Below, piece by piece: positions 22,285-33,780 of a stretch of DNA of 53,941 nucleotides. Both the position numbers and the translations under genes were made by a program. This DNA is from Nostocales cyanobacterium LEGE 12452 (GTDB lineage Bacteria; Cyanobacteriota; Cyanobacteriia; Cyanobacteriales; Nostocaceae), in assembly GCA_015206945.1 (NCBI GenBank), contig JADEXV010000018.1:1-53941 (forward strand), written 5' to 3'. The stretch's first letter is position 1, and the number at the start of each line of letters is the position of its first letter. The notes beneath the pieces are model-generated. The model saw only the letters and a list, made by a program, of their open reading frames with translations. It was not told the DNA's origin and searched no databases.

Positions 22285-23376
22285 TTATGAATTACCAATA
22301 ATTTGTTTAACAACACCAACAAAGCGTTCCATGTCGGCTTGGGTAATGGCTCCCATTGTTGATACTCTGAAGATTGATTGAGCTAAATTTCCCTGTCCAG
22401 AATAAATTATATAATCTCGTGCTTTCAGTTGGTCGTGAAATTCTTCATAGCTGAAACCGTCTGGCAAGTGGTAGGCATTCAAGACAGCGGATGAACTGCT
22501 AAGAGGAAGTAGGGGTTTAATTCCGATTGAGGCTAACCCGTCTCTGACTAAGCTGGCAAGTTGGTTGTAATGTTTGTGTCTGGCACGCCAACCTCCTGCT
22601 TCTACCATTTCTTGCAAAGCTTCTGTTAAGGCATAAAATGTCTGTACTGATTGCGTAAAAGGCGTGCCACCTCGTTCTTGCTGCTGGTAATAGGTTGCTA
22701 AATCTAAATATAAGGTGCGGGGAATGGTGTCTACTGACGGCAGTGCATCCCGTTGCAGGATGACAAAGGACACTCCGGGAACACCATGCAGACATTTATT
22801 CGCTGTCGCAGCGCAAGCGGTGATTCCCCAATCTGCAAAATTTAATTCTTCAGCACCAAAGCTGCTGACTGCATCTACTAATAGTTTGATGCGGCGTTCT
22901 TGGCAAATTGGGGCAAGTTCTGCCAAATTATTTAAGCGGCCGGTAGTAGTTTCGTGATGGACGACAGCAAGGTGGGTGATGTCGGCGTTTTCATCTAGGA
23001 GTTTGATTAAAGCTTTGATATCTATTTTGCCATCCCAAGGATGGGAAAGTGTGATGTAATTAATGCCGTGAATTTTGGCGATTTTGGATAGTCGTTCGCC
23101 ATATACACCGTTTTCAATGACTAATAATTTCCCGTTTGTGGGTACTAAACTGCTAATCATCGCTTCCATCGCGGCGGTACCAGAACCGGTGAGGAGAACT
23201 GCTGCCCAGCCGCTTCCAAGACCGTAAACTTGAAGTAATTGTTCGCGGATTCTGCTCTGAAGTTGGGAAAATTCCACCTCACGATGACACAAATCAGGAC
23301 GCAACAGGGCATTTCTGACGCGATCGCTCAAATTGACGGGGCCGGGATTTAGTAAAATCATTTTGTCATTTGTCAT
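22285..23376 (-). CDS. phnW: 2-aminoethylphosphonate-type transaminase
   Basis: A 363-residue class V aminotransferase. The N-terminus MILLNPGPVNLSDRVRNALL, the phosphate-binding LLTGSGTAAMEAM, the Asp in LLVDAVSSFGAEE and the PLP-lysine region ATANKCLHGVPGVSF match PhnW and its relatives. PhnW interconverts 2-aminoethylphosphonate plus pyruvate with phosphonoacetaldehyde plus alanine. Next to PEP mutase and the decarboxylase it should run in the biosynthetic direction. The related alanine-glyoxylate aminotransferases are excluded mainly by context. Start is uncertain: the upstream heptamers contain several ATGACAA starts and the likely initiator is that of MTNDKM or MILLNP. Confidence 0.88.
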   Translation of the reverse strand: MTNDKMILLNPGPVNLSDRVRNALLRPDLCHREVEFSQLQSRIREQLLQVYGLGSGWAAVLLTGSGTAAMEAMISSLVPTNGKLLVIENGVYGERLSKIAKIHGINYITLSHPWDGKIDIKALIKLLDENADITHLAVVHHETTTGRLNNLAELAPICQERRIKLLVDAVSSFGAEELNFADWGITACAATANKCLHGVPGVSFVILQRDALPSVDTIPRTLYLDLATYYQQQERGGTPFTQSVQTFYALTEALQEMVEAGGWRARHKHYNQLASLVRDGLASIGIKPLLPLSSSSAVLNAYHLPDGFSYEEFHDQLKARDYIIYSGQGNLAQSIFRVSTMGAITQADMERFVGVVKQIIGNS

Positions 23377-23424
23377 TTGTCATTTGTCATTTGTCATTTG
23401 TCATTTGTCATTGGGCATTGGGCA
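23362..23424. repeat. Tandem heptamer repeat (TTTGTCA)
   Basis: Seven perfect TTTGTCA heptamers at 23362-23410 are followed by two TTGGGCA variants. The array overlaps the 5' end of the transaminase gene, so on the coding strand each AATGACA unit carries an ATG. It is a short tandem repeat of the kind common in heterocystous cyanobacteria. Confidence 0.95.
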
Positions 23425-23467
23425 TTAATAAATTAAGAGTTTGTAATTGGAATTTATTAATTACGAA

Positions 23468-24649
23468 TTACGAATTACCAATATGGTTCATAAAGCGTTG
23501 TAAAACTGCTTCCGGGGTGAGGTTGGGTCTGGGTAGCTTTTCTAAAGTTCCGGGACGGATTTTTAAATGAGCGAATTTAGGTCTATTGTTAGCATCTGCG
23601 GTAAATAAGGCATCTAAAAGGGCGGGATCATCTCCGGCTAATGTAACGCCGTAACCGCACGCTTCGGCAATTTTGGCAAAGGAGATACCCGCAGAAACCG
23701 TGGCTTGTGCGCCTGTGGAATCGTGGACTTCATTATCTAAAAGAATATGGGTCAAGTTAGCACCGCCATAAGTGCCAATAGTCGCAAAATTACCCATTCG
23801 CATCAGTGCTGCCCCATCGCCATCAATTACTACTACCTTGAGGTCTGGACGTGCTAAAGATAATCCCAATCCCATTGAGGAAGCGCAACCCATCGACCCG
23901 ACCATATAAAGATGATTGGCACTGTCTTTACTAGCAAAGAGTTCGCGTCCCGTATATCCGGTGGTGGCAATTACTACAGTGTTTTCTGGATCGGTAAGTT
24001 CCACAATCCGAGCTAATGCTTCGCTGCGAGAAATGCGTTGTTCTTTGTTGTCCCGAAAAAAGCTTTGCTGAATATGAGCGCTAGCACTATTTTCTCGTTC
24101 GGGGATAGAAGAACGGGTGAGCGCATGGGGGGCGTTGGCGTAGCCCATCGAAGATATCGCTCCTTTACGCATGATTAAAGCATAAGGACAGCGCTCTTGT
24201 TGCATATAGGCTGTGGCTCTTTGCAGAACGGGTTCTATTTGTGCTACATCTGTAGGAAAAAATTCCCAAGGTATAGTCATTGTTTGCAACAATTTATCTG
24301 TGATTTGCCCCATTAATTGATGTTGCGGTTCATCTTGCAACACGCGATCGCCTCGCAAGGTACAAATCAGCAGTAGTGGAATCCGAAAGATATAAGTAAG
24401 GGAGGTTAGCGGGTTAACTGCATTCCCCAAACCAGAGTTTTGCATCATTACTACTGCGGGTTTACCAGCAATTGCGGCTCCAGCTGCGATCGCTACAGCA
24501 TCTCCCTCATTGGCTGCGGAGATGTATCTAAGTTGAACGTCATTGATGACGTAGTTAATAAAAGGCGTGAGAAAAGAACAGGGTACGCCAGTGTACCACC
24601 CAAAGCCAAGATTACGCGCAGCTTCTACAAATTCCTCTGCCTGGATCAT
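23468..24649 (-). CDS. Phosphonopyruvate decarboxylase
   Basis: A 393-residue thiamine-diphosphate enzyme. The N-terminal pyrimidine-binding domain has GVPCSFLTPFINYV and the catalytic Glu in SAANEGDAVAIAAG. The C-terminal PP domain has the TPP-binding motif GDGAALMRMGNFATIG with downstream DNEVHDSTGAQ. Length and these motifs match phosphonopyruvate decarboxylase (Ppd/AepY), which converts phosphonopyruvate to phosphonoacetaldehyde and makes the PEP mutase reaction irreversible. It sits 91 bp upstream of the transaminase gene and downstream of PEP mutase on the same strand, which supports the assignment. Confidence 0.93.
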   Translation of the reverse strand: MIQAEEFVEAARNLGFGWYTGVPCSFLTPFINYVINDVQLRYISAANEGDAVAIAAGAAIAGKPAVVMMQNSGLGNAVNPLTSLTYIFRIPLLLICTLRGDRVLQDEPQHQLMGQITDKLLQTMTIPWEFFPTDVAQIEPVLQRATAYMQQERCPYALIMRKGAISSMGYANAPHALTRSSIPERENSASAHIQQSFFRDNKEQRISRSEALARIVELTDPENTVVIATTGYTGRELFASKDSANHLYMVGSMGCASSMGLGLSLARPDLKVVVIDGDGAALMRMGNFATIGTYGGANLTHILLDNEVHDSTGAQATVSAGISFAKIAEACGYGVTLAGDDPALLDALFTADANNRPKFAHLKIRPGTLEKLPRPNLTPEAVLQRFMNHIGNS

Positions 24650-24782
24650 AATTCAAAATTTACAGCAATTGTCAGGGATTTAAACGATTGAGATGGGGAG
24701 TGGGAAATTGGGAGTAGGGAGGAAAGATTATGACTTCGACTTCAGAAAGCCAAACTTGAGCTTCAGAACTCAAAACTTTAAC

Positions 24783-25042
24783 CTCAAAGCTTCGTTAATG
24801 AACCTCAAAGCTTCGCCGATGAACCTCAGAGCTTTGTCGATGAACCTCAGAGGTTGTTTGAAAAGTAGTTAGCTGTGATTTTAGGTGCTTGTTGATCCCC
24901 CCTAGCCCTTAAAAAGGGGGGAACCGGAATTAAAGTCCCCCTTTTTAAGGGGGATTTAGGGGGATCTAGAACGTTTTGCTACCAACAAGAGGACTTTTCA
25001 AACATTTTCTCAGAGCTTCGTTGATGAACCTCAAAGTTCAAA
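24783..25042. repeat. 21-bp tandem repeats, split by an insertion
   Basis: Three successive 21-bp units (AACCTCAAAGCTTCGTTAATG and variants) precede a fourth unit that is broken after AACCTCAGAG. Its remainder CTTCGTTGATG and the next AACCTCAAAG lie beyond the insertion at 25011-25036. Joining the two sides restores the 21-bp period exactly. Confidence 0.8.
24853..25008. mobile_element. MITE with terminal inverted repeats and 7-bp TSD
   Basis: About 156 bp inserted in the 21-bp repeat array. Perfect 12-bp inverted repeats TGTTTGAAAAGT (24855-24866) and ACTTTTCAAACA (24993-25004) lie near the ends, with a second pair CTTGTTG/CAACAAG inside. The core is a C-run/G-run foldback. CTCAGAG is duplicated on both flanks (24846-24852 and 25009-25015), consistent with a 7-bp target duplication. 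It has no coding capacity. Confidence 0.8.
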
Positions 25043-25065
25043 ATTTTATTTCCACCTCCCCACTC

Positions 25066-26721
25066 CTATTGTTTTAATTGAAAAGCAAGGTCAAGATCGT
25101 CTAAAGAATTAACATCTAACCAGTTACCGCGAATATAAAGTACCTTGATCGGTTTGCCTTGCTCGATTAAATAATTGCATAATTCTGGCAAACCCAGACT
25201 GTTAAATTCCGGTCGTTTTTGCAACTCATTGAGTGCTTCACTAACCCATTGTCTACCTTGACTCCGCAAGCGCAACATCCCAATCCAGCGGCCGCTAGAC
25301 TTTCCTAATTGCGTTTGTGTGGTTTTAGAAACGTTCAACAGGTTGACATCCTGTCCAAACAGAGAAAGATCGTCTGGAATTGAGCAATAGGCGTAGTCAG
25401 GTGAACCACTAACAGACTTGCTGTTGGCCACAGAATCAACAACAGCCACAATTTCTCCAGGACATTCTAATAAATCTCGCAGGATGTAGCTTCTAAATAG
25501 TAAATCGCCATAAAGCACCAGCATTTCTTCGCCAAAACTAGCTTGAGCTACGGCTAAGGATGCTAATTCTCCCGTTGTTTCATAATCTGGGTTACAGATG
25601 ACTTTAGTCCCCGGAACATCGATCGTTTCTGCTTTGTAACCGGCGACAACGGTAATATCATTGATAGCAAGTTTCTTGAATTTGTCTACCAATAACCTGA
25701 GTAAAGGTTTACCTCCAAGGGGTAACATCACTTTTGGCTTATCTTGCGTCAACCCTGCTAATTCTTGGCCTCTGCTAGCAGCCAGAACGATCGCTTGGGT
25801 ATTTTGCCGTCCGTTATTAAAGTAGCGTTTTTCAGCTTCTATGAGTTCATCCGCCCCTTGTAGCCGGAAGATTTCTTTTACGGGAGCGATATCATCTTCA
25901 ATGTTGATTAAAGTTTCGCTGGCTTTCACTTCACGCGCGATCGCTTGCATACTAGCAACAGCAGCTCGAATCAGATGGTTTGCCCAGATGACCAAATTAA
26001 CTTCAGCTTTGCGAAAAACATCAGTAGGCGTGCTGTAATATTTAGTCGGTATAAACACTAACGGGGAACGACCCGCCCATTCTTTAGCAAAGGCTAGCAC
26101 TTGATCGGGGCGCGATGATTTACTGTGAATTAGGATGGCGTTTGCTCCGGCGGCGTGGTAAGCTTCAGCTCGGCGCAGCGCTTCCGAAAGATCCCAGCCG
26201 GCGATCAAAGCTTCGAGTCGGGCGACGATGCAAAAATCTGGGTCTGTCTGACTATCTTTACCCGCCTTAATTTTGCCGCAGAATTCATCAATTTCAGCCA
26301 AAGGTTGGCGACTACCGTTGATAAAGCTGTTGGTTTTGGGAAAAAGCTTATCTTCAATACAGACTCCAGCAATACCTCGCTGTTCTAACTTTTTCACCAG
26401 GCGGCGCATATTATTAAAGTTGCCATAACCAGTATCCCCGTCTAACAAAATGGGAATGCTGGTGACATCAGACATAAACTCAAGCATTTCTACAACTTGA
26501 GTCCAACTGGCTTCATTATTATCTCGAACGCCATATTGAGCAGAAAGGGCTAATCCGCTCGCCCAAATTCCTTTAAATCCAGCCTCTTCCACAATGCGGG
26601 CGCTAATGCCATTGTGAGCTTCCATGATGAAGTCGAGTTGAGGCGATTCTAATAATAGCCGTAATTGGGCACATTTATTTAATTTTGCAGAGGTATCATT
26701 GGGTACAAATATTTGATGCAT
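25066..26721 (-). CDS. pepM: PEP mutase fused to a nucleotidyltransferase
   Basis: 551 residues in two parts. Residues about 15-290 form a PEP mutase/isocitrate-lyase barrel with GDTGYG at 95-100 and the diagnostic [10 protein letters not shown] at 123-132, the motif that separates true PEP mutases from lyases. It isomerises phosphoenolpyruvate to phosphonopyruvate, creating the C-P bond. Residues about 307-551 form a sugar-nucleotide-type nucleotidyltransferase ([35 protein letters not shown]). PepM-nucleotidyltransferase fusions are known and the second domain can act as CMP-AEP synthetase (PntC-like). Here its Gly-rich loop is AASRGQEL, not the usual AAGxGxRL, so its activity is uncertain. 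Confidence 0.93.
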
Positions 26722-26936
26722 TTATTCTGCTTTTCTTAACCTATAGTAATAATGAAAGAAGAATTCAGAAGCCAGAATTCAGAATCAATTAGTGGGAGAT
26801 TCAAAATCGTCACTATGTTTTTAACCACTAAATCGGATATTTAATCGGGATTTGAAACTCCTTGATTTACCCGCTAATAGCAAATAATTCATACTGAATT
26901 CTGACTCCTGACTCCTGAATTCTTTCAAAGATATTT

Positions 26937-27698
26937 TCAGACATTTTCTGCGACTTCTATCTGAGGTAAAATATCATTTTGAGCGCGTTGAATATCCTGG
27001 GGAAAATCTATTTCAAGCCAAGGTAATCCAGTAATGTCTTCGTAGCCAAATGTTTCTGGAGTTTCTAAGAGCAGATCCCGAATTACTTCTTCATAAGGTT
27101 CATTATCGCGTCCGTCTGCAACATATTGTTCTGTGCGAGTCGCAAGACGGGGAGCAACAGCACTTTCAAAACGAAAGAATCCTACTGACTCACCCGCAAA
27201 ATCATAAGCTAAACCAGGAGCTACTTGTTTACGAAACTCCACGAGATAATTATCTCTAACACAAAGCTTCACGGGTTCATCTCCCGGTTCAAAATCCCGA
27301 TCTAATAAAAAGCTGTTGGGGATATTTGTCTTTACCAATCGTTCGATGATGCGGCGATCGCACAACACATCTGCATCCATTAATAATATGTCATCGCCAG
27401 CAACTAAATGCTGACGTACAGTCCAAAGGCTGATCGTACTGCCTTTAGTGTAATCAGGATTATAAACAGTACTGACCCAATTTTCGGCTCCTAATGCTTT
27501 GATTTCATCCTGAATTCTTTGTGCTTGATAACCCACAGCAATTACTACTTCATCAATTTGGTAATGACGAAGATAGTTAAAATGGCGCTCTAGTAGAGAT
27601 TTGCCGTTAAACTTCAGTAAGCATTTGGGTTGGATTTGCCCCTCTTTACCTAAGCGTCGTCCAACGCCAGCAGCTAAGATAATTGCCTTCATCGTCAA
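26937..27698 (-). CDS. Nucleotidyltransferase, probable CMP-AEP synthetase
   Basis: A 253-residue Rossmann-like nucleotidyltransferase with a canonical N-terminal loop LAAGVGRRLG (about 8-17), KCLLKFNGKSLLERH and the metal-binding LLMDADVLCD (about 97-106). It resembles LicC/PntC-type enzymes that load small phospho- or phosphono-alcohol groups onto CMP. Given its neighbours I infer CTP + AEP to CMP-AEP, feeding the CDP-alcohol phosphatidyltransferase. The alternative is activation of another headgroup or a sugar phosphate. It lies 215 bp upstream of the PEP mutase gene on the same strand; that gap holds an inverted GAATTC-rich repeat. Confidence 0.85.
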   Translation of the reverse strand: MTMKAIILAAGVGRRLGKEGQIQPKCLLKFNGKSLLERHFNYLRHYQIDEVVIAVGYQAQRIQDEIKALGAENWVSTVYNPDYTKGSTISLWTVRQHLVAGDDILLMDADVLCDRRIIERLVKTNIPNSFLLDRDFEPGDEPVKLCVRDNYLVEFRKQVAPGLAYDFAGESVGFFRFESAVAPRLATRTEQYVADGRDNEPYEEVIRDLLLETPETFGYEDITGLPWLEIDFPQDIQRAQNDILPQIEVAENV

Positions 27699-28128
27699 AT
27701 CACCAACAGTAGCTTAGACACCAGTAAATCTGGAAATTTTCCCAGTATTTTATAATGACTGTTTTTTGCTCAATTCAACGTTTATTAACTAATTCTTAAC
27801 ATGAAAAAAAAAGTAATTCTGTGGTAAAGTTTGTCACCATTGAATAATACTAGAGTACCAGGAGTTAAGGAGAGCGATCGCGTTTGTGTCTCCTGTTCAG
27901 GAATATCTTTGTAGAGTTGATATTCCAACTTACTGGACGAGCGATCAATCAAACCAATCAACACTGTATAGATTCTATACTAATGCTATTAATGTCACTG
28001 ATGATACAAGTAGTAGTTAGTGCCACGAGCAAAAACATCCAAGTGACTTTTTTCCTAAGATGCTACTGCTGGCACATCAATGATGTTACCACTAAAGCTT
28101 ACGAAATCTGTACTCAACCAATAACAAC
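27699..28128. other. Gap without a supported gene
   Basis: Lies between the HigA-like gene and the nucleotidyltransferase. A plus-strand frame reads VSPVQEYLCRVDIPTYWTSD for about 44 codons before a stop, and another is open to 28171. Neither has a ribosome site or recognisable motif; they may be debris of a former gene. A GCGATCGC site lies near 27874. The nucleotidyltransferase promoter probably lies here. Confidence 0.4.
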
Positions 28129-28545
28129 TTATTCAGAACTATTTGGGAAGAAAGCAGCAGGTGAAATATGAAAAAATTCTGCCAGTTCTTCAATGTGTCT
28201 AGTTGTTAATTTACGCCGCTTTTTTAAGATGGCCGATATAATAGATTCTGTTTTAAAAATGGGTACTAAATCTTTTTGAAGTAGTCCATTTTCTTCTATC
28301 AAAACCTGAAGTAAATCTATTCCATAAATATCAGGCACGGGCTGCTGTGTTTCTTCATACTCGTAAACTAGAGTGCCTAAAATATTAAGATAATCTTTTT
28401 CATCTGATGTTAACGGGGCGCTATCTATCAGAGAATCAATAATTTTTTGGGTTGCAAGCATTTCCTCCTCAGTCTTGATAGGACGAGGAGGAAATGCTTG
28501 CAGTAGCTCAATGTAGGTAGGACGTTTATTTAAACCAAGGGTCAT
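28129..28545 (-). CDS. higA: HigA-family antitoxin
   Basis: A 138-residue antitoxin. The C-terminal part (about 85-138) is a Xre-type helix-turn-helix (NGLLQKDLVPIF, ESIISAILKKRRKLT, EELAEFFHISPAAFF), and the N-terminal part is acidic and helical as in long HigA proteins. It should bind and neutralise the upstream-encoded HigB-like toxin and repress the operon. It overlaps the toxin gene by 20 bp, typical of the reversed toxin-first HigBA order. Its coding sequence contains a perfect 18-bp inverted repeat near the 5' end. Confidence 0.9.
   Translation of the reverse strand: MTLGLNKRPTYIELLQAFPPRPIKTEEEMLATQKIIDSLIDSAPLTSDEKDYLNILGTLVYEYEETQQPVPDIYGIDLLQVLIEENGLLQKDLVPIFKTESIISAILKKRRKLTTRHIEELAEFFHISPAAFFPNSSE
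28453..28502. repeat. Perfect 18-bp inverted repeat inside higA
   Basis: Arms 28453-28470 (TGCAAGCATTTCCTCCTC) and 28485-28502 (GAGGAGGAAATGCTTGCA) flank a 14-base loop. In the mRNA this is a strong hairpin. Its 3' arm carries GAGGAGG followed by an in-frame ATG (MLATQKIID...), though the spacing is only two bases. Confidence 0.85.
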
Positions 28546-28828
28546 TTTTCCATTTATCGGTATCGTACTCTGTATGGGTTATTATGTTACGAATAAATAT
28601 TTTTTTGCTTTGATAATCAATATAAGTAATAAGGCGATACTTGTTTCCTTGAATATTAAAAACTGTAAGCTCACCTACTGGATCGGCAGAGTTAAAGGCT
28701 TGACGAACTTCAACTATATTCTGCCACTTGGCTGATTTTGCAACTTTGTTCCAACCACGTAAACTAGATTCAGCATCAGGATACTTTTGATAAAAAAGTT
28801 TCAGTGTTGTGGTAGAAATAATGTGCAT
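28526..28828 (-). CDS. higB: HigB-family mRNA interferase toxin
   Basis: A 100-residue RelE-superfamily toxin of the HigB type. It starts MHIISTTTLKLFYQKYPDAE, has WNKVAKSAKWQNIVEVRQAF and NIQGNKYRLITYIDYQSKKIFIR in the strands, and ends with HTEYDTDKWKNDPW near the C-terminus. This matches ribosome-dependent mRNA cleavage toxins. The gene precedes and overlaps the antitoxin gene. Two large palindromes lie upstream at 28912-29019, near where its promoter or operator would be. Confidence 0.92.
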   Translation of the reverse strand: MHIISTTTLKLFYQKYPDAESSLRGWNKVAKSAKWQNIVEVRQAFNSADPVGELTVFNIQGNKYRLITYIDYQSKKIFIRNIITHTEYDTDKWKNDPWFK

Positions 28829-28911
28829 AATAAATGAATTTTCTTAAGGTAAAGATCATGGGTGGCTCCTTTTATACTCATTTGTATCTCTCTAAATTTA
28901 GGTTTTACAAC

Positions 28912-28954
28912 ATCTATGCATCAACATAGCAATCCGCCATGTTGATGCATAGAT
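28912..28954. repeat. 16-bp inverted repeat
   Basis: Perfect arms ATCTATGCATCAACAT (28912-28927) and its complement (28939-28954) with an 11-base spacer. It lies about 85 bp upstream of the HigB-like toxin start and only 10 bp from the next palindrome. It could be an operator, a terminator of the upstream gene or the tip of a small element. Confidence 0.85.
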
Positions 28955-28964
28955 TGCAAGTTGT

Positions 28965-29019
28965 TTAACCTACTTGACACTAACTTAGCAAATTGCTAAG
29001 TTAGTGTCAAGTAGGTTAA
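28965..29019. repeat. 55-bp near-perfect palindrome
   Basis: Perfect 27-bp arms (28965-28991 and 28993-29019) around a single central A; the left arm starts TTAACCTACTTGACACTAAC. A palindrome with almost no loop can extrude as a cruciform, and an RNA copy would be a very stable hairpin. There is no T-tract directly after either arm. Confidence 0.9.
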
Positions 29020-29200
29020 TGATTAGGGTTTCTCGCTTTACCCCAATAACGGTAGACTTTCGGTAAAAAGATATTTGTTACCAAGTTTACAAAGTGCGAT
29101 GGCGTACTCGCCCACCGTATGCGATCGCAAAATTTGATTATCTATATCAATAAAGCTAAAAAGCCTATTTTATGAGCTTTCTACCCGATGCGCTGTTATG

Positions 29201-29806
29201 TTAGTTCGATTCAGACTGCGGCAGTGTCAGAAATTGCCAAATTACCCATATAGCAAAGGTTGGCGCACCAATTGTCGCTGCCATTAGTAACGGCTCTAGT
29301 CCATTCAATAAGGGAACTATGGGAAACAAATACAGCACGTCTTCAATGTCAAAGCCGGCGAAATTTGGTTGGCGGCTGGCGTCTTTACCCAAACGCTGTT
29401 CCATCTGGTTTCGCAAATGAAAGATGCAAGCAACAGACACGCCAGATACTATCCCCATCACCAACGCCCACCAAGCAAATTTTCCCTCTCTAAGACCATA
29501 TCCAATACACACAAATAATAGAATATGGATGATGGCGTCACTAGCAAGGTCATACTGATGTCCCCATTTGCTGGTTTTCCCACTCAAACGAGCTAATTCA
29601 CCATCCGTATGATCGAGAAAGTTGGATAAAGCAAATAGCCATGCCCCAATATTAACCCAAATGGCATCGCCAATTGCAAGCGCGAGGGCAGCTACCAACC
29701 CAGTTACAAGTCGCACTGTGGTGAGATGATTGGGGTTTACCCAACTGTCTTTTAGAGGTCGAACTAGCCAGTAAGCAAGTTGAGCATCCCAAGGCTTTGT
29801 GGTCAT
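29201..29806 (-). CDS. CDP-alcohol phosphatidyltransferase family protein
   Basis: A 201-residue membrane enzyme carrying the complete family signature: Asp65, Asp68, Gly69, Ala72, Arg73, then Gly82, Asp86 and Asp90 (in DHTDGELAR and GHQYDLASD). Around this lie about five hydrophobic helices. The family transfers a phospho-alcohol from a CMP-activated donor to an alcohol. With PEP mutase, decarboxylase, transaminase and nucleotidyltransferase downstream on the same strand, I infer that it joins the AEP group of CMP-AEP to a lipid acceptor such as diacylglycerol or a ceramide. An ordinary phospholipid or inositol-phosphate synthase is the alternative. Confidence 0.88.
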   Translation of the reverse strand: MTTKPWDAQLAYWLVRPLKDSWVNPNHLTTVRLVTGLVAALALAIGDAIWVNIGAWLFALSNFLDHTDGELARLSGKTSKWGHQYDLASDAIIHILLFVCIGYGLREGKFAWWALVMGIVSGVSVACIFHLRNQMEQRLGKDASRQPNFAGFDIEDVLYLFPIVPLLNGLEPLLMAATIGAPTFAIWVIWQFLTLPQSESN

Positions 29807-31908: not shown

Positions 31909-33564
31909 TTAGCTACGAACTTTCGTAACAATTTTTTGGGAATAAAACGAAGCTGATTCTTCATTTTTGGCGCAATCTTGGGCAAACTTAATTAAATGAT
32001 GTCCGACAAGTCCAACGTGAATCAAGTTTTCAATATTACCTGCTTTCAATGCTGGCTTGGCCATTTTCCAGAAAGTCTGACGATAGTTACTAAATACGCC
32101 TATCCGCAACAAAATATTAGCTAAATAAGTTAAACCTTTGCGAATATTAGCCCCCGAAGTGCGAGATGGGCTGTTAGGTACTTCGATGCGGTTTGGATAG
32201 GTGTGTTCCATGTTGTAGGCAAACCGCTGATATAAAAATTCTGGCTCATAGGCAGTTGTGATGCAGCGCCGCCACATCTCAATCACTTGCTCATAAGGCA
32301 TCAAAAACTCAACATTTGATTCGCGGCTTTCATCAAAAAGAAGTCGTCCTTCTGCTTCTAATCTCCGCCATAATGGAGTTCTCGGTAATGCATGAAGCAA
32401 GTTAATTGTCAACATGGGAATTTGCGATGCCCGCATAAATTCGATAATTCGGTCTGCGGTTTCTGGTGTATCTGTATCTAACCCGATGATGATTCCTGAT
32501 ACCACTTCCATGCCATAACTATTTAAAACCTGAATCGCTTTTAAAATCGGCATACTCAGATTTTGGTCTTTGGAAATCGCATGGAGAGCATTTGGTTCTG
32601 GTGTTTCGATGCCGCAAAATATTGTGCAAAAATAAGCTTCGCGCATCATTTCCAGCAGCTTTGGACTTTGAGCTAAGTTGAGCGTTGCTTCGCAGGCAAA
32701 CTGGATGGGGTAGCCATTGCGTTTTTGCCAGTCAATCAGATGCGGAAGCAACTTCATGGCAGCACGGCGATCGCCAACAAAGTTATCATCGACAAAATAC
32801 ACTGCTCCCAAATTACCAGATTGTCGCATTGCGTCTAACTCCGCGACTACTTGCTCTGGCGTTTTCATCCGGGGACTGTTGCCATAGAGTTCGGGAATAT
32901 CACAAAACTCGCAGTGATAAGGGCAACCACTAGAAAACTGCACATTTGCCAAAAAATAATCATTGATATTCAGCAAATGATAAGCTGGGGTGGGAAACTC
33001 TGTTAAGGGTAAACGTTCCTTGGTTTCAAAGCGAATTTGTTGTTGCGGACGTTGAGAGTTTTGGTCTAGATATTCGATCATGCGATCGCTTGCATCTCCC
33101 AATTCACCCAAGTGTAAAATATCAAAATCAGGGTAATATTCTGGACACCCAGATACTGAGGGGCCACCCACAACTGTAATTTTCCCCGCTCGATGGGCAA
33201 GTTCATTAATTTGATTAATCTGTGGTTTTTGAATGTGCATTCCACTCACAATCACCACATCAGCCCATTGGTAATCAGCCCTACTTGCTGATTTGACATT
33301 TTCATCAAAAAACCGCACTTCCCATTCTTTAGGTAAGTAGGCAGCCACAATTAAAATACCTTGGGGTGGCATAAAAGCCCGGACATTACCCATAAGTGGA
33401 TAAGCGTGATGAAAAGTACCAAAGGAGCGGCTGTACTTGGGAAAAATACACAAAATACGTCGATGGTGCGAAGGAACGTAGCGGGTTCCTTGAGCAGTAG
33501 AAGCGGTTTTAGAATCAGCCGCGACGTTAATTTGGTTCTCTAAAGACTTTAAATTCACAGTCAT
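31909..33564 (-). CDS. hpnP: Radical SAM/B12 protein, HpnP-like hopanoid C-2 methylase
   Basis: About 551 residues. A cobalamin-binding N-terminal domain (FPKYSRSFGTFHHAYPL, MPPQGILIVAAYLP, VSGMHIQ, GGPSVSGCPEYYPDFD) precedes a radical SAM domain with Cys218, Cys222 and Cys225 (CPYHCEFC; counted from GTG 33576) and a C-terminal DUF4070-like region. The arrangement and FCDIPELYGNSPRMKTPEQ correspond closely to HpnP as I remember it, the enzyme that makes 2-methylhopanoids. I prefer ATG 33564 over the GTG. No other hopanoid gene is adjacent. A related B12-radical SAM methylase with another substrate is the alternative. Confidence 0.82.
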   Translation of the reverse strand: MTVNLKSLENQINVAADSKTASTAQGTRYVPSHHRRILCIFPKYSRSFGTFHHAYPLMGNVRAFMPPQGILIVAAYLPKEWEVRFFDENVKSASRADYQWADVVIVSGMHIQKPQINQINELAHRAGKITVVGGPSVSGCPEYYPDFDILHLGELGDASDRMIEYLDQNSQRPQQQIRFETKERLPLTEFPTPAYHLLNINDYFLANVQFSSGCPYHCEFCDIPELYGNSPRMKTPEQVVAELDAMRQSGNLGAVYFVDDNFVGDRRAAMKLLPHLIDWQKRNGYPIQFACEATLNLAQSPKLLEMMREAYFCTIFCGIETPEPNALHAISKDQNLSMPILKAIQVLNSYGMEVVSGIIIGLDTDTPETADRIIEFMRASQIPMLTINLLHALPRTPLWRRLEAEGRLLFDESRESNVEFLMPYEQVIEMWRRCITTAYEPEFLYQRFAYNMEHTYPNRIEVPNSPSRTSGANIRKGLTYLANILLRIGVFSNYRQTFWKMAKPALKAGNIENLIHVGLVGHHLIKFAQDCAKNEESASFYSQKIVTKVRS

Positions 33565-33780
33565 CGCAAATTTCACCCTGGAAAACTGAGCAGGTAATTT
33601 GACAGTTTATTGACATAATTCGCTGTAATTCCAACTAGCTTACCAAAGAAAGGCAGGAGGCAGAACGAATTAGAAATGTATTTTTGCTCAAAACAAAGTC
33701 ATAGCGATTATAAATCGCCCAATCTTACCTTGAGTAAATCGCAAAGTTTTTTTCAAACTAAACAATTAATAACTTCCTCA

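Follow-up and report, generated by a model that had tools for sequence, protein, structure and literature searches.

A 53,941-nucleotide stretch of contig JADEXV010000018.1 from Nostocales cyanobacterium LEGE 12452 (hereafter the window) carries, on the minus strand at positions 22285-29806, a cluster of enzyme genes that probably place a carbon-phosphorus (C-P) headgroup on a membrane lipid. The enzyme genes named in the initial annotation all lie where it placed them, but its count of six should be five, one of which encodes a two-domain fusion, and it overlooked a HigBA-like gene pair and a decayed oxygenase gene. By coordinate, the features are as follows:

22285-23376, minus strand: 2-aminoethylphosphonate (AEP) transaminase, PhnW/AepZ type (TIGR03301, 424.7 bits, cut-off 360.8)
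23468-24649, minus strand: phosphonopyruvate decarboxylase, Ppd (TIGR03297, 444.9 bits, cut-off 312.5)
25066-26721, minus strand: phosphoenolpyruvate (PEP) mutase fused to a MobA-like nucleotidyltransferase domain (TIGR02320, 386.7 bits, cut-off 319.55; fused domain at about 25069-25815, PF12804, 51.6 bits, cut-off 27)
26937-27698, minus strand: standalone nucleotidyltransferase (NTPT), candidate CMP-AEP synthase (PF12804, 59.7 bits; match to Tde1415, 6pd1, E = 8.6e-9; Arg15, Lys25 and Lys157 kept in 82 of 82 sequences)
about 27812-28036, minus strand: remnant of a 2-oxoglutarate (2OG)-Fe(II) oxygenase gene (E = 1.0e-27, four in-frame stops; best piece 27812-27970, 90.6% identity)
28129-28828, minus strand: HigBA-like toxin-antitoxin pair (HigB, PF09907, 101.7 bits, cut-off 27; partner, HTH_19, 17.6 bits, under the cut-off of 30.2)
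29201-29806, minus strand: CDP-alcohol phosphotransferase (CDP-AP), candidate AEP-lipid synthase (PF01066, 61.4 bits, cut-off 22; full signature; 201 residues, one domain)

Transcription therefore reads from CDP-AP through the HigBA-like pair, NTPT, the PEP mutase fusion and Ppd to the AEP transaminase. The listed start codon of NTPT is TTG, with an ATG at codon 3. Pfam cut-offs are passed twice by PF12804, once in each nucleotidyltransferase domain, and once by PF01066 in CDP-AP. Because this gene order is kept in many genomes, a chance assembly of the cluster can be ruled out.

The identification of a PEP mutase, a thiamine diphosphate-dependent decarboxylase and a PhnW-type transaminase is borne out, as all three proteins exceed the cut-offs of their NCBIfam equivalog models. 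The mutase half of the fusion matches the solved PEP mutase 1m1b (E = 2e-127), and its sequence [10 protein letters not shown] fits the EDKxxxxxNS motif given for PEP mutases (Ppm) in PMC6697681; the same motif is present in 79 of the 80 GTDB loci scanned, the other (L111) being unreadable. The CDP-alcohol enzyme was likewise correctly described as having its full Asp signature: the window protein has every position of D..DG..AR(x8)G...D...D, as do 65 of 66 distinct homologues. When a profile of 47 sequences (the window protein with 46 of the 66 homologues) was searched against solved chains, it matched AF2299 (E = 3.6e-12), IPCT-DIPPS (9.2e-10) and CEPT1 (3.8e-7), with PgsA last at 5e-3; the designed pentatricopeptide protein 6een, which heads the list at 1.3e-12, was dismissed as a chance repeat match.

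On balance, we think it probable that the cluster makes a phosphonolipid, the product being a prediction from sequence. PEP mutase would form phosphonopyruvate, which Ppd would convert to phosphonoacetaldehyde and the PhnW/AepZ-type transaminase to AEP. NTPT, as its conserved catalytic residues and close pairing with CDP-AP suggest, would then join CTP and AEP to give CMP-AEP, from which CDP-AP would transfer AEP to a lipid alcohol (diacylglycerol being the most likely) in a reaction like that of an ethanolaminephosphotransferase. We infer the donor and acceptor from the chemistry: a CDP-diacylglycerol route would be awkward because AEP has no hydroxyl, and CMP-AEP plus diacylglycerol corresponds to the ethanolaminephosphotransferase reaction. 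The predicted product would be a phosphonate counterpart of phosphatidylethanolamine, made by an organism in which no phosphatidylserine (PS) decarboxylase is visible.

As to the last point, PF02666 (PS decarboxylase) was not found in the organism's own genome, while the same model found it in 6 of 14 control genomes. The genome holds one other PF01066 gene besides CDP-AP, which we guess to be PgsA.

The initial annotation had proposed a homology search for the same gene set across Nostocales, and in 217 Nostocaceae genomes the set indeed recurs (genome lists and coordinates for these co-occurrence counts were typed by hand from match tables). The fused PEP mutase was matched in 47 genomes: 41 hold what we call type A (at least 77% identity) and four hold only type B (52-55%), the other two being a fragment in G113 and a remote match in G178, both left out of the type A set. 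One genome, G060, holds both types, and the type A copy of G109 is cut by a contig end. CDP-AP was matched in 43 genomes; two of these matches are fragments (G141 and G066) and are omitted, and the other 41 are exactly the type A genomes. NTPT was found at E 1e-40 in 40 genomes, all of type A, the exception among the 41 being G028. In 27 of the 41 genomes CDP-AP lies within 12 kb of the PEP mutase gene; in two it shares the contig at distances of 26 kb and 844 kb, and 12 carry it on a different contig (assembly breaks may account for G109 and G025 among these). As CDP-AP stays with PEP mutase even when unlinked (the 14 genomes in which it is not within 12 kb), it is unlikely to be a mere bystander. 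Across the phylum the cluster is rare, PEP mutase being detected in 6 of 386 sampled genomes (E 1e-80) and CDP-AP in 3 (E 1e-15).

Some genomes that lack the full set retain broken leftovers, of NTPT and PEP mutase in L049 and of CDP-AP in L070 and L096, which suggests repeated loss. A second copy of CDP-AP, at 47-49% identity, is present in two Nostocaceae genomes of the same genus (L035:10344-10940, where it lies beside NTPT, and L063). At L047:11781-13898, a type B PEP mutase cluster comes with a canonical NTPT of its own and a HAD phosphatase, and a distant CDP-AP follows its transaminase gene, making a second NTPT and CDP-AP pairing. At L044:576-5319, the genes after another type B cluster encode a methyltransferase, a cytidylyltransferase-like protein, part of which resembles a CDP-glycerol glycerophosphotransferase, and a glycosyltransferase; the whole is possibly a phosphonoglycan pathway.

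The association extends beyond cyanobacteria. A scan of GTDB contigs gave at least 520 confirmed stretches, of which the best 80 comprise 13 cyanobacterial and 67 proteobacterial loci; each spans about 6 kb on either side, some being cut by contig ends, and a gene is counted as absent when the fetched stretch does not contain it. Burkholderiaceae and Gammaproteobacteria repeatedly show the order CDP-AP, oxygenase, NTPT, PEP mutase, Ppd and AEP transaminase. Among the 27 proteobacterial loci with CDP-AP, NTPT is present in all 27 and an HpnL-type gene in 26; among the 40 without it, the corresponding counts are 14 and 1. The HpnL of L130 scores 349.1 bits against TIGR03476 (cut-off 195.65) and also passes the flippase-like TIGR00374 and PF03706. 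This association ties CDP-AP to a lipid-handling membrane protein. In a tree of 57 PEP mutases, hand-picked from 112 and rooted at the midpoint, the 17 type A cyanobacterial sequences form a single clade (97/99) among proteobacterial ones; given this rooting and the meeting of long branches, no direction of lateral transfer is claimed.

Both nucleotidyltransferases had been put forward as sources of CMP-AEP, a proposal that fits NTPT better than the fused domain. Rice et al. (2019, PMC6697681) assayed Tde1415, a fusion of PntC to a transaminase, and Ari1348; in Tde-PntC, alanine at Arg15, Lys25 or Lys153 left less than 10% activity. The sets of NTPT, fused-domain and CDP-AP sequences compared in this work exclude hits with stops, low-coverage hits and exact duplicates (L101 and L111 having no picked PEP mutase). 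The NTPT equivalents of all three residues, read by eye from the Tde1415 alignment, are each present in 82 of 82 sequences including the window, as is that of Glu196 in 80 of 82; the loop Arg itself is kept in 81 of 81 NTPT sequences when the window is not counted. In the fused domain, the loop reads [ST]RGx[EG] (SRGQE in the window) instead of GxG(T/S)R, and the position of the loop Arg is taken in 112 distinct sequences by Gly (53), Glu (49), other residues (9) and Arg only once, in L159, which has one extra residue there. In an alignment of the window domain with 51 of the 112 fused domains, all 52 sequences keep the PK Lys and the YGD Asp, and 33 keep the WLDV Asp. Judged from these residues, NTPT is a stronger candidate for the CMP-AEP synthase than the fused domain. 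The residue before its loop Arg, where Thr or Ser is expected, is Arg in the window and, among the 82, Arg in 42, Leu in 20, Gln in 5, Lys in 5, Asn in 4, Ser in 3 and others in the remainder; for this reason we say that NTPT may work like PntC and do not class it as PntC.

Fused PF12804 occurs in 33% of Ppm proteins according to PMC6697681, and the published survey places the PEP mutase-fused MobA-like domain with phosphonate-tailoring nucleotidyltransferases. The fused domain may be divergent yet active. We tentatively raise a further idea, which we hold at well below even confidence: in this lineage the fused domain might not be a CMP-AEP catalyst at all but might serve the mutase as a sensor, as a scaffold or in channelling, with NTPT the true CMP-AEP synthase, and NTPT and CDP-AP (together with the HpnL flippase in Proteobacteria) might form a transferable module for attaching AEP to membrane lipids.

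Several observations weigh against the phosphonolipid reading. In the profile search CHPT1 (1.5e-5) is about level with PIS (1.1e-5), and the top NCBIfam match of the window CDP-AP is archaetidylinositol phosphate synthase, at 50.2 bits under a cut-off of 180; enzymes of this family can also use soluble or CDP-diacylglycerol substrates. Neither the window nor any of the fetched cyanobacterial loci was found to contain HpnL. One genome, G028, has PEP mutase and CDP-AP without NTPT, and its fetched stretch has neither Ppd nor the AEP transaminase. The co-occurrence is among related genomes and does not amount to 41 independent events, nor does the Fisher value calculated for it measure independent evidence. 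At the position of Tde-PntC Glu104, NTPT has Asp in 80 of 82 sequences, as does the phosphocholine enzyme LicC, so these residues do not reveal which substrate it uses. Against NTPT as the CMP-AEP synthase, 26 of the 67 loci from Proteobacteria contain the fused protein and no NTPT.

These points give room to other readings. AEP could be activated as proposed above and then passed by CDP-AP to a polyprenol-linked, glycan or soluble acceptor, yielding a phosphonoglycan or a small diester and no glycerolipid. In the bifunctional archaeal IPCT-DIPPS model, whose acceptor is soluble, one half is matched by NTPT and the other by CDP-AP (71.6 and 40.5 bits, under a cut-off of 580), and the L044 type B cluster has its glycosyltransferase and CDP-glycerol glycerophosphotransferase-like domain beside the same core. 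However, the window cluster has no glycosyltransferase, and the proteobacterial HpnL association points to a lipid; we regard this reading as rather unlikely.

It is less likely still that CMP-AEP is really made by the domain fused to PEP mutase, with NTPT activating another headgroup for CDP-AP to transfer. The loci that have the fused protein without NTPT speak for this: with two cyanobacterial ones they number 28, of which 15 show no canonical nucleotidyltransferase motif at all and 13 show only one, on the opposite strand at the far end, in proteins that we take to resemble MobA/MocA neighbours. The invariance of the PK Lys and the YGD Asp is also in its favour. The loop Arg, however, is absent from 111 of the 112 fused domains, and its Arg15Ala counterpart is among the Tde-PntC changes that reduced activity to below 10% (PMC6697681); the WLDV Asp is missing from 19 of 52, while NTPT keeps all three of the mutated residues.

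That the cluster serves phosphonate breakdown or makes a secreted small phosphonate is highly improbable: PhnW-type transaminases act in AEP breakdown too, but PEP mutase is biosynthetic, CDP-AP is co-inherited with it, PhnJ was not found in the organism's genome (the E. coli control was detected), and no phosphonatase there passed the cut-off (best 48.5 bits against 220, a cut-off that no control genome passed either).

For the phosphonolipid that we favour, the oxygenase gene bears on the form of the headgroup. A full-length 2OG-Fe(II) oxygenase is present in 21 of the 41 type A genomes (one that was scanned matches Pfam HalD at 46.2 bits, cut-off 26) and a PhyH enzyme in three, the copy in G075 being nearest to the methylphosphonate hydroxylase PhnY (208 bits, under a cut-off of 500); five, including the window, hold remnants or fragments, and in 12 none was found in the fetched stretch. 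All 48 picked oxygenases retain an H.D motif followed further on by H or R, which is a loose criterion. Some strains may thus make a hydroxylated headgroup. This strain probably makes plain AEP, since the oxygenase that may hydroxylate the headgroup in its relatives is decayed here.

Other genes near the cluster appear to lie outside the pathway. The HigBA-like pair, which sits between CDP-AP and the oxygenase remnant, is complete for both genes in just two other tabulated genomes (G126 and G143) and is probably a passenger; together with metallo-beta-lactamase (MBL)-fold and short-chain dehydrogenase/reductase (SDR) genes it was rejected as a pathway member on account of patchy occurrence across the fetched Nostocaceae stretches. 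Upstream of CDP-AP, and close to it in many relatives, 31909-33576 encodes a B12-binding radical S-adenosylmethionine (SAM) protein (DUF4070), whose top NCBIfam match, a PhpK-type P-methyltransferase, is far under cut-off. It too was rejected, as it occurs in 88 of the 217 genomes, 38 with and 50 without type A PEP mutase.

The pathway and its lipid product, as first suggested for this locus, remain the best reading, but the accompanying view that such a lipid was undescribed in a Nostoc-like organism does not stand. A phosphonate cluster in a lichen Nostoc, with a phosphonolipid pathway proposal, was published by Gagunashvili and Andresson (BMC Genomics 2018, PMC5987646), and the idea is thus already known for Nostoc as a published prediction. 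The legend to Fig. 7 of that paper lists a CDP-alcohol phosphatidyltransferase, a 2OG-Fe(II) oxidase, an NTP transferase, pepM, ppd, an AEP aminotransferase, hpnL and higBA; it also mentions broken genome lines, so the gene sets may vary. No chemical evidence for the lipid in Nostoc was found in the literature searched, which consisted mostly of titles and the openings of abstracts. The present analysis adds that CDP-AP and PEP mutase share their distribution, that NTPT, CDP-AP and HpnL are associated, and that the two nucleotidyltransferases differ in their loop. If the prediction is true, a cyanobacterium without a visible phosphatidylethanolamine route makes the phosphonate analogue of that lipid, whose C-P bond, as noted in PMC5987646, resists ordinary phospholipases. 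The cluster offers a specific candidate for the final step of bacterial phosphonolipid synthesis, and the association of NTPT and CDP-AP with HpnL opens that step to direct testing in vitro. The missing Arg in the loop, for its part, raises the question whether PEP mutase-fused PF12804 domains are active cytidylyltransferases.

Four known systems bear comparison with the cluster. CEPT1 and IPCT-DIPPS/AF2299 share the CDP-alcohol phosphotransferase signature with CDP-AP and, the chance repeat match aside, are its top profile matches among solved chains; CDP-AP differs in being a single domain of 201 residues with CMP-AEP as its predicted donor, and it reaches no NCBIfam equivalog. PntC, in the form of Tde1415 (Rice et al. 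2019, PMC6697681), is matched by NTPT along its length; Tde1415 is, however, fused to a transaminase whereas NTPT is not, and NTPT has Asp for Glu104 and lacks the Thr or Ser before the loop Arg (Arg in the window), and the PEP mutase-fused domain lacks the loop Arg of GxG(T/S)R. The lichen Nostoc cluster, as its Fig. 7 legend describes it (PMC5987646), has hpnL and a 2OG-Fe(II) oxidase, whereas in the window hpnL was not found and the oxidase is a remnant; the five enzyme genes and the HigBA-like pair are common to both. The clusters of Burkholderiaceae and Gammaproteobacteria, in turn, differ from the cyanobacterial loci in that HpnL accompanies CDP-AP in nearly all of them and was seen in none of the latter, but they share the same homologous gene order, with a PEP mutase fusion that is 60-70% identical.

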